IMG/VR virus record: IMGVR_UViG_3300037493_002833
Coordinates: 1-50,143 of that record
DNA length: 50,143 nt
Reading direction: 5' to 3' (one strand)
Source of the DNA: a virus
Shown here piece after piece: positions 42,989 through 43,667 of the stretch. Position numbers and translations under genes: made by a program. Below the pieces are notes generated by a model. The model had not been told where the DNA came from and ran no database searches. It saw only the letters and a program-made list of their open reading frames with translations. Within the stretch, counting starts at the first letter, position 1. Each line of letters starts with the position of its first letter.

Positions 42989-43129
42989 ATGAAAAGATTA
43001 TTCAGAAAAATTATTGCAATATACAATCGTTGTAGATATTGCGGAAGAACTATTGAAGATACTGGTGCTGGTTCAGAACCAAGACCTAATATGTGTGAAA
43101 GATGTTTTGAAAACGGAGGTGATGAATAA
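42989..43129 (+). CDS. 46-residue zinc-ribbon protein
   Basis: The protein starts MKRLFRKIIAIYNRCRYCGR with CRYC (15-18) and ends with NMCERCFENGG; the two CxxC pairs, about 18 residues apart, form a plausible zinc-ribbon. Such tiny proteins in phages often act on host RNA polymerase or as small DNA-binding factors. It lies just before the cassette region. Function inferred from the ribbon only. Confidence 0.65.
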   Translation: MKRLFRKIIAIYNRCRYCGRTIEDTGAGSEPRPNMCERCFENGGDE

Positions 43130-43147
43130 CTATATAAACTTGACAAA

Positions 43148-43216
43148 ATGATACAATACATACCATACATAGCAGTAATAATTGTATTAATTTATACCTG
43201 TTTCCCCGATAGGTGA
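43148..43216 (+). CDS. 22-residue hydrophobic peptide, uncertain
   Basis: ATG at 43148 gives MIQYIPYIAVIIVLIYTC then FPDR, a single membrane-spanning stretch. It is too short to judge; it could be a real membrane peptide of the early operon or a chance frame just upstream of the attC-like element. Confidence 0.3.
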   Translation: MIQYIPYIAVIIVLIYTCFPDR

Positions 43217-43225
43217 GATGGAATG

Positions 43226-43357
43226 ATATAACGTATCGGGTATTGCCGAAGGCAGGGATTTGAAAGACAAAAATTTCAACCTTGCACAAATGCCCAATAG
43301 AAATACAAATGATTAATTAACCGAGAATGCCCTGCTTTTGGCGATACCTTGTTAGGT
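43226..43357 (+). other. attC-like recombination site (large imperfect hairpin)
   Basis: The element has the layout of an integron attC. It starts with an R''-like ATATAAC (43226-43232), has a 20-pair stem (43238-43257 with 43330-43349, G-T wobbles at four places, no mismatch), an internal loop region of about 70 bases, and ends with GTTAGGT (43351-43357), a perfect GTTRRRY core. Stem arms are GTATTGCCGAAGGCAGGG and CCCTGCTTTTGGCGATAC. Total length, 132 bases, lies in the attC range. It is visibly GC-richer than surrounding DNA and fits no promoter or gene; R'' matches only five of seven positions. Confidence 0.65.
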
Positions 43358-43626
43358 GCAGTGCTTCTCACAAACTTAAATAAAAATGGAAAATGTTTTA
43401 AATTTCAAATGGAAAAAAGGTGTTAAGGAAGTATTCCCTGCTCACCCAATGGTTCAAAATTGGCTGTTCACAGAAGATACAGAAGCCGAAGCAATGTTAG
43501 CACATCAAATGGCAGTAGTCGCTGAAAAAAGCGGTATGACAGCCAATGACCTGCAACATATTTTCCCTGCTGTCCTTCGTATGTTAAAGAATGATAGTGC
43601 ATGGTCGAAATAGCATTGCACCTAAC
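43352..43626 (+). mobile_element. Gene-cassette-like unit bounded by a 15-bp inverted repeat
   Basis: GTTAGGTGCAGTGCT (43351-43365) and AGCATTGCACCTAAC (43612-43626) are complementary at 14 of 15 positions, with the single difference a G-T wobble. They frame one small gene whose stop codon already overlaps the right repeat. The left end is TTAGGT and the right end ACCTAAC, the RYYYAAC of the cassette's own attC start. No complete attC follows on the right, and no integrase gene lies in the window, so the unit seems to be a captured or truncated cassette. Confidence 0.6.
43386..43613 (+). CDS. 75-residue cassette protein, unknown function
   Basis: The protein (MENVLNFKWKKGVKEVFPAH; PMVQNWLFTEDTEAEAMLAH) is soluble and mostly helical, with GMTANDLQHIFPAVLRMLKN near the end. 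It has no known motif. Base composition and codons look richer in G/C than neighbouring phage genes, agreeing with the flanking repeat in suggesting acquisition. Start ATG follows an A-rich leader 20 bases after the repeat. Confidence 0.75.
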   Translation: MENVLNFKWKKGVKEVFPAHPMVQNWLFTEDTEAEAMLAHQMAVVAEKSGMTANDLQHIFPAVLRMLKNDSAWSK

Positions 43627-43667
43627 ATAAAATATGTACGTTTCCTTTATAATTAATTAATTTAAAA

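Follow-up and report, generated by a model that had tools for sequence, protein, structure and literature searches.

The segment at positions 43233–43626 of the window (the whole 50,143-nt stretch of viral DNA that was analysed) is most probably a cassette with a single gene, belonging to an integron-like system that Bacteroidota share with their phages, carried here in a reversed phage form and seated in a putative attI-like slot. It very likely works like an integron, although we do not claim membership of the canonical integrons, because the recombinases linked to the family failed the test for the IntI signature and the window has no recombinase. The argument is built on what can be read from sequence: the ends of the unit, its recurrence, the alternate cassettes, the arrays, the covariation of the hairpin, the contrast in gene orientation and the co-occurrence with a recombinase.

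The window belongs to a tailed phage, with PHROGs matches to a terminase large subunit, virion and tail proteins, NinG and a primase/helicase. The unit lies on the + strand, has ends matching those of about 50 viral contigs and consists of an attC-like hairpin, a core, a gene and a terminal core. The attC-like site (43225–43362, +) was recognized by hairpin scanning, covariation and folding, and by a match of 120 bits to R1, a covariance model built from 59 hairpins that include the window hairpin itself. In order, it comprises AAC (43230–43232), a 6-nt spacer, a stem (43239–43257 pairing with 43330–43348) closing a 72-nt loop, a 2-nt spacer and GTTAGGTG, the stem being followed on its 3' side by TT and GTTAGGTGCAGTGC. 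The hairpin ending in GTTAGGT that was reported in a preliminary description of this DNA is real: its 19 contiguous pairs, three of them G.T, contain no mismatch, and in our own hairpin scan it was the only AAC...GTTR hairpin of this type in the 50-kb window. The + strand folds at −18.9 kcal/mol (z −2.9, with 0 of 200 shuffles as good), as compared with −11.7 kcal/mol (z −0.3) for the − strand, indicating that the hairpin folds on the gene-sense strand and not on its complement, where the G.T pairs of the stem become C.A.

A cassette-specific inverted core repeat of 16 nt, 94% complementary, frames the gene. Its left arm, TGTTAGGTGCAGTGCT (43350–43365, +), contains GTTAGGT (43351–43357), and its right arm, AGCATTGCACCTAACA (43612–43627, +), contains the ACCTAAC (43620–43626) that ends the cassette. 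The ORF for the 75-aa product (43386–43613, +) runs into the right arm, with the stop at 43613. The framing repeat, the overlapping stop codon and the higher GC content of the unit (39.3% versus 33.9% for the window, about the 94th percentile among stretches of equal length) had been correctly described before; the left limit of the segment, previously put at 43226, moves to about 43233. The core copies of the window fit both RYYYAAC and GTTRRRY, and crossover would take place at AA/C, or directly after AAC, at both cassette ends. No match was obtained for the window in Rfam at the gathering threshold, nor for the segment by blastn against phage and plasmid collections.

Pfam and PHROGs searches, run with the 75-aa protein and its neighbours, returned no family match for the 75-aa protein. 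It is modelled with confidence as a small alpha/beta structure (pLDDT 90.6), but a fold search with this model gave no significant structural match, and hence we propose no function from structure. Since the gene sits next to replication genes, in a slot whose content can be swapped, it may have a small accessory function, perhaps anti-host or anti-defence. The gene has close relatives in two viral contigs (L003, L004) and two MAG contigs (L006, L007). Homologues in other contexts, with no hairpin, are found in L007 (607–841, 88% identity) and L005 (3001–3192, 75% identity), so that the gene is not restricted to cassettes.

L003 and L004 are about 94% identical to the window over some 400 bp, from the base of the hairpin to CACCTAAC, with no similarity beyond. 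The left boundary of the unit is the AAC before the hairpin (AAT in L004), and its right boundary is CACCTAAC. Searching with the 16-mer from the hairpin foot, we collected 60 viral stretches, of which about 50 bear the hairpin, many with quite different genes and unrelated flanks; in solitary phage units the ORF, wherever found, lies on the hairpin's strand and keeps a constant spacing to the cores. Since the element conserved between unrelated flanks spans the hairpin, the gene and CACCTAAC, the travelling unit is hairpin, gene and terminal core, and we infer that it is mobile. For the same reason, the hairpin on the left is the cassette's own attC and not, as first proposed, that of a preceding cassette. 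In phage arrays, as many as about 20 units follow one another, each cassette having its own core pair (GTTAxxxx..gene..xxxxTAAC). DNA methyltransferases with a DPPY motif are frequent products of phage cassettes (in L003, L008, L014, L016, L026, L033–L035, L040, L044, L046, L053 and L209), and several of these carry a nearly identical attC-derived N-terminal leader (..TFGNTLLGAVP).

In an alignment of 59 diverse hairpins, AAC and GTT were invariant and 16 of 21 pairs showed double-sided changes; compensatory double-sided cells numbered 290, versus 91 after shuffling and no more than 51 in slid controls. The family has an AAC-to-GTT length of about 121 nt and asymmetric spacers of 5–6 and 1–2 nt. 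The GTTRRRY core attributed to the hairpin holds for the copy in the window, but the family follows it only loosely (44 of 166 sites). Judging from these compensatory changes and from the recurrence with unrelated flanks, the hairpin and its unit are more than a product of chance. Covariation on the gene-sense strand, together with the half of phage genes that start within the hairpin, would also suit an ordinary stretch of phage DNA that homologous recombination has spread among phages and in which a hairpin of regulatory RNA precedes a gene. This explanation is nevertheless scarcely credible, given the exact AAC junctions, the unrelated flanks, the different genes behind the same leader and the chromosomal arrays, whose hairpins are located 3' of genes.

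Insertion of a cassette at a defined place is further suggested by a relative phage (contigs 3300009152_000050 and 3300027974_000128), in which both flanking genes are 78% identical to those of the window. At exactly the same right junction, AAC|ATAAAATATGTACG, this phage carries a different cassette, encoding a 262-aa DNA methyltransferase and having a hairpin (20 pairs) and a core pair (GTTATACGC/GCGTATAAC) of its own. The right junction reads CGTATAAC|ATAAAATATGTACGTTTCC in the relative versus CACCTAAC|ATAAAATATGTACGTTTCC in the window, and the downstream sequence is conserved. The left junctions of the window and the relative differ; that of the relative, L209, reads GATGAATAAC|G. In the window, GATGAATAAC is separated from the cassette by about 100 extra bp (43116–43232) that include a tiny ORF (MIQYIPYIAVIIVLIYTCFPDR); this stretch may be an earlier insertion, since the L209 cassette directly follows GATGAATAAC. 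We found no true empty site, only the slot filled differently in the relative phage. Recurrence in about 50 viral contigs and an alternate cassette at the identical junction argue for an integron-type cassette at a specific site, and the different cassettes at the same site in related phages for a plug-in slot receiving small accessory genes, often DNA methyltransferases.

The left half of the candidate target site is the AAC at 43230–43232 (+), which precedes G in nearly all units, and its right half is ATAAAATATGTACGTT (43627–43642, +), identical beside a different cassette in L209. Units with no following hairpin share a right-flank motif, T NNNN [TG][AC]T[TA]NNCG[CA]A, that reaches 8.5 bits over 21 phage sites, as compared with a maximum of 3.6 in 2000 shuffles, and a related motif is present at sites beside host recombinases. 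We read this shared motif as a probable double-stranded attI-like site. The right side of the segment had been interpreted as the cassette's own attC cut short; it appears instead to be an attI-like half-site common to independent phage insertions and to recombinase-proximal sites of hosts, and the other cassette that the relative phage has at the same AAC| junction likewise speaks against truncation.

R1 matched 192 of the 396 Bacteroidota genomes sampled (with no more than eight candidates scored in any genome, so that the numbers per genome are minimum values), in agreement with the earlier expectation that the hairpin would occur in Bacteroidota chromosomal arrays beside other genes. The host stretches that we fetched contain long hairpin arrays, with all hairpins co-oriented on one strand and exchangeable single-gene cassettes arranged head-to-tail, the core pairs matching within each cassette. 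One array, in L171 (G179:C2, minus strand), shows R1 matches of a constant 201-nt length every 0.6–1.2 kb and is apparently formed by a longer hairpin variant of the family.

Gene orientation, scored with one automated rule for viral and host hairpins, separated phages from hosts. The gene followed the direction of the folding strand at 64 viral hairpins and opposed it at one, versus 6 and 78, respectively, at host hairpins; an earlier count in host arrays had found 68 of 72 genes opposite to the folding strand. The attC is therefore 3' of the gene in 78 of 84 host cassettes versus 1 of 65 phage cassettes, indicating that host arrays are of the canonical form and that phage cassettes are reversed, with the attC 5'. 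Solitary viral units were sampled, with bias, through the 16-mer, and the unselected array cassettes in L121–L124 show the same direction. The predicted start codon falls inside the attC in 31 of 64 phage cassettes (starts being predicted from ORFs only), in which case translation would include the attC 3' arm and core as a leader, frequently with LGAV (TTAGGTGCAGTG) at its end.

No tyrosine recombinase (PF00589) is encoded in the window which, with its one hairpin, fits a CALIN or a solitary cassette. Recombinases of this family occur in 3 of 28 cassette-bearing viral records and are absent from the remaining 25, as from the window, suggesting that the enzyme usually acts in trans. Two phage arrays each encode a tyrosine recombinase, of 264–279 aa, and 11 of the 20 host array stretches fetched hold a Xer/IntI-like recombinase of 310–484 aa (two of them partial). 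One of the array-linked enzymes is a 347-aa protein in L156 (14591–15634). The host enzyme is co-oriented with the cassette genes, usually directly past the last cassette, and in eight of the 11 stretches it lies 70–240 nt beyond the matching last core, by the common attI-like motif, an arrangement of which the window holds the attI-like half-site only.

The array-linked recombinases lack an insertion of about 36 residues found between the catalytic patches in canonical IntI of the same phylum, and score 149.9–210.8 bits against TIGR02249, below its cut-off of 265. Their best profile was the XerA-type NF040815, whose cut-off of 220 was reached by four of ten, and none reached the NCBIfam equivalog cut-offs for XerC/XerD. 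In a phylogenetic tree, the host array recombinases formed a clade apart from canonical IntI, and the two phage-encoded enzymes were long-branched and of uncertain placement. Considering a recombinase as present at E below 1e-60, the hairpin was found in 105 of 119 recombinase-bearing genomes versus 87 of 277 others (OR 16, p 5e-27, with genomes treated as independent irrespective of phylogeny); the 87 hairpin-bearing genomes with no recombinase at this threshold are possibly decayed or incomplete.

These data bear on two further explanations. The first is a canonical cassette captured from a host array and moved by a standard IntI, with subsequent loss of the downstream attC. It would account for the GTTAGGT/ACCTAAC core and the folded site, a protein exceeding the canonical integron-integrase cut-off is present in 105 of the 396 sampled Bacteroidota genomes, and recombination of phage attC sites by IntI1 has been published (PMC9892861). 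However, the gene travels with the left hairpin and has none on the right, its orientation is opposite to that of host cassettes, the right flank is an attI-like site, and canonical IntI is depleted in hairpin-rich genomes (OR 0.17 at 8 or more matches), so that we consider this origin unlikely. Because of the same anticorrelation, canonical IntI was rejected as the partner enzyme. The proportion of genomes with a canonical integron integrase is itself higher than published surveys suggest. The second explanation, a single-strand transposon-like or MITE-like unit whose hairpin serves in end recognition by a different kind of enzyme (HUH transposase, group II intron), agrees with the hairpin lying close to one end, with AAC at the two junctions and with a unit devoid of enzyme, but is very improbable in view of the head-to-tail arrays with cassette-specific core pairs, the tyrosine recombinase and attI-like motif at array ends and the strong recombinase-hairpin co-occurrence. 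Of the preliminary description, what remains favoured is an integron-type cassette that holds a single gene and a folded attC-like site, with no integrase in the window. A plain captured host cassette, which would have the attC 3' of its gene, disagrees with the opposite orientations in phages (64:1) and hosts (6:78), and a canonical integron origin with a likely recombinase that lacks the IntI insertion and falls below the TIGR02249 cut-off.

For the reversed phage cassette, we propose that the attC-like hairpin forms on the gene-sense (+) strand when this is single-stranded, with the recombination core AAC/GTTR at its base. The host, or another phage, would then provide in trans a tyrosine recombinase that joins the AA/C end of an excised cassette circle, whose junction would read CACCTAAC-GGTTCGGG, to a double-stranded attI-like TAAC|ATAAAATATGTACG in the phage early region; the circular intermediate, the strand exchange and the identity of the acting recombinase are the parts of this scheme that we infer. 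Insertion would leave the cassette gene co-directional with the phage early genes, the attC being 5' of the gene in phage cassettes, with many translation starts inside it, and 3' in host cassettes. More generally, we think it probable that a widespread integron-like system of Bacteroidota and their phages has been missed by standard searches, having a Xer/IntI-related recombinase devoid of the IntI signature, an attI type of its own and an attC type of about 121 nt, and that phages evolved reversed cassettes suiting early operons, with which they swap accessory genes at defined slots.

As in integrons, single genes form cassette arrays with folded sites, R-like cores and a crossover beside GTT, an attI-like site lies by a tyrosine recombinase, and there are CALIN-like arrays lacking the enzyme. 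Unlike in integrons, the recombinase has no IntI-specific insertion and scores below the TIGR02249 cut-off, the core is GTTR and not GTTRRRY, AAC and GTT are about 121 nt apart with asymmetric spacers (5–6 and 1–2 nt), the recombinase is co-oriented with the host cassettes, and phage cassettes are reversed. Array-linked enzymes resemble XerA/XerC/XerD in being closest by profile to XerA-type NF040815, and their closest structures are XerA-like (PDB 4a8e, 5hxy) and IntI4 (2a3v). They differ in that most host members have an extra N-terminal region (345–484 aa) and are linked to cassette arrays, and they group apart from E. coli XerC/XerD in the tree.

Phage attC sites and CALINs were described by Qi et al. 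in 2023 (PMC9892861), for instance in Polaribacter phage P12002L, where attC sites have divergent directions. Those integrase-less cassette clusters are also rich in DNA methyltransferases, but were found with canonical attC tools, and the part of the article available reports no systematic reversal of gene relative to attC and no non-IntI recombinase. P12002L, considered as a possible family member, yielded one loose AAC..GTTAGG hairpin in a folding scan and no R1 site at E up to 0.1; lacking an R1 match, it is not claimed for the family. In Riemerella anatipestifer, the resistance gene aph(3')-IVb integrates without homology, with 27 bp at the 5' side and a 140-bp attC-like stem-loop at the 3' side, and site-specific recombination was proposed (PMC13148043, 2026). 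This Bacteroidota unit has a 3' stretch that, by its description, fits the host cassettes in size and geometry, and differs in that no recombinase was identified there.

In the open-access literature that we searched, we found no description of the present system. The IntegronFinder 2.0 survey (PMC9024848) reported nearly no complete integrons in Bacteroidetes, in contrast with a hairpin family present in about half of the sampled genomes. Together, hairpin arrays beside a recombinase lacking the integron-integrase signature point to an integron-like system that has gone mostly unnoticed. Should the linked recombinase move the cassettes, this would be a hidden gene-exchange platform in a major phylum, reaching its phages; the reversed phage format raises the testable question of what sets cassette gene direction, and the system offers a possible mechanism both for phage plug-in genes and for the homology-independent gene acquisition of Riemerella.
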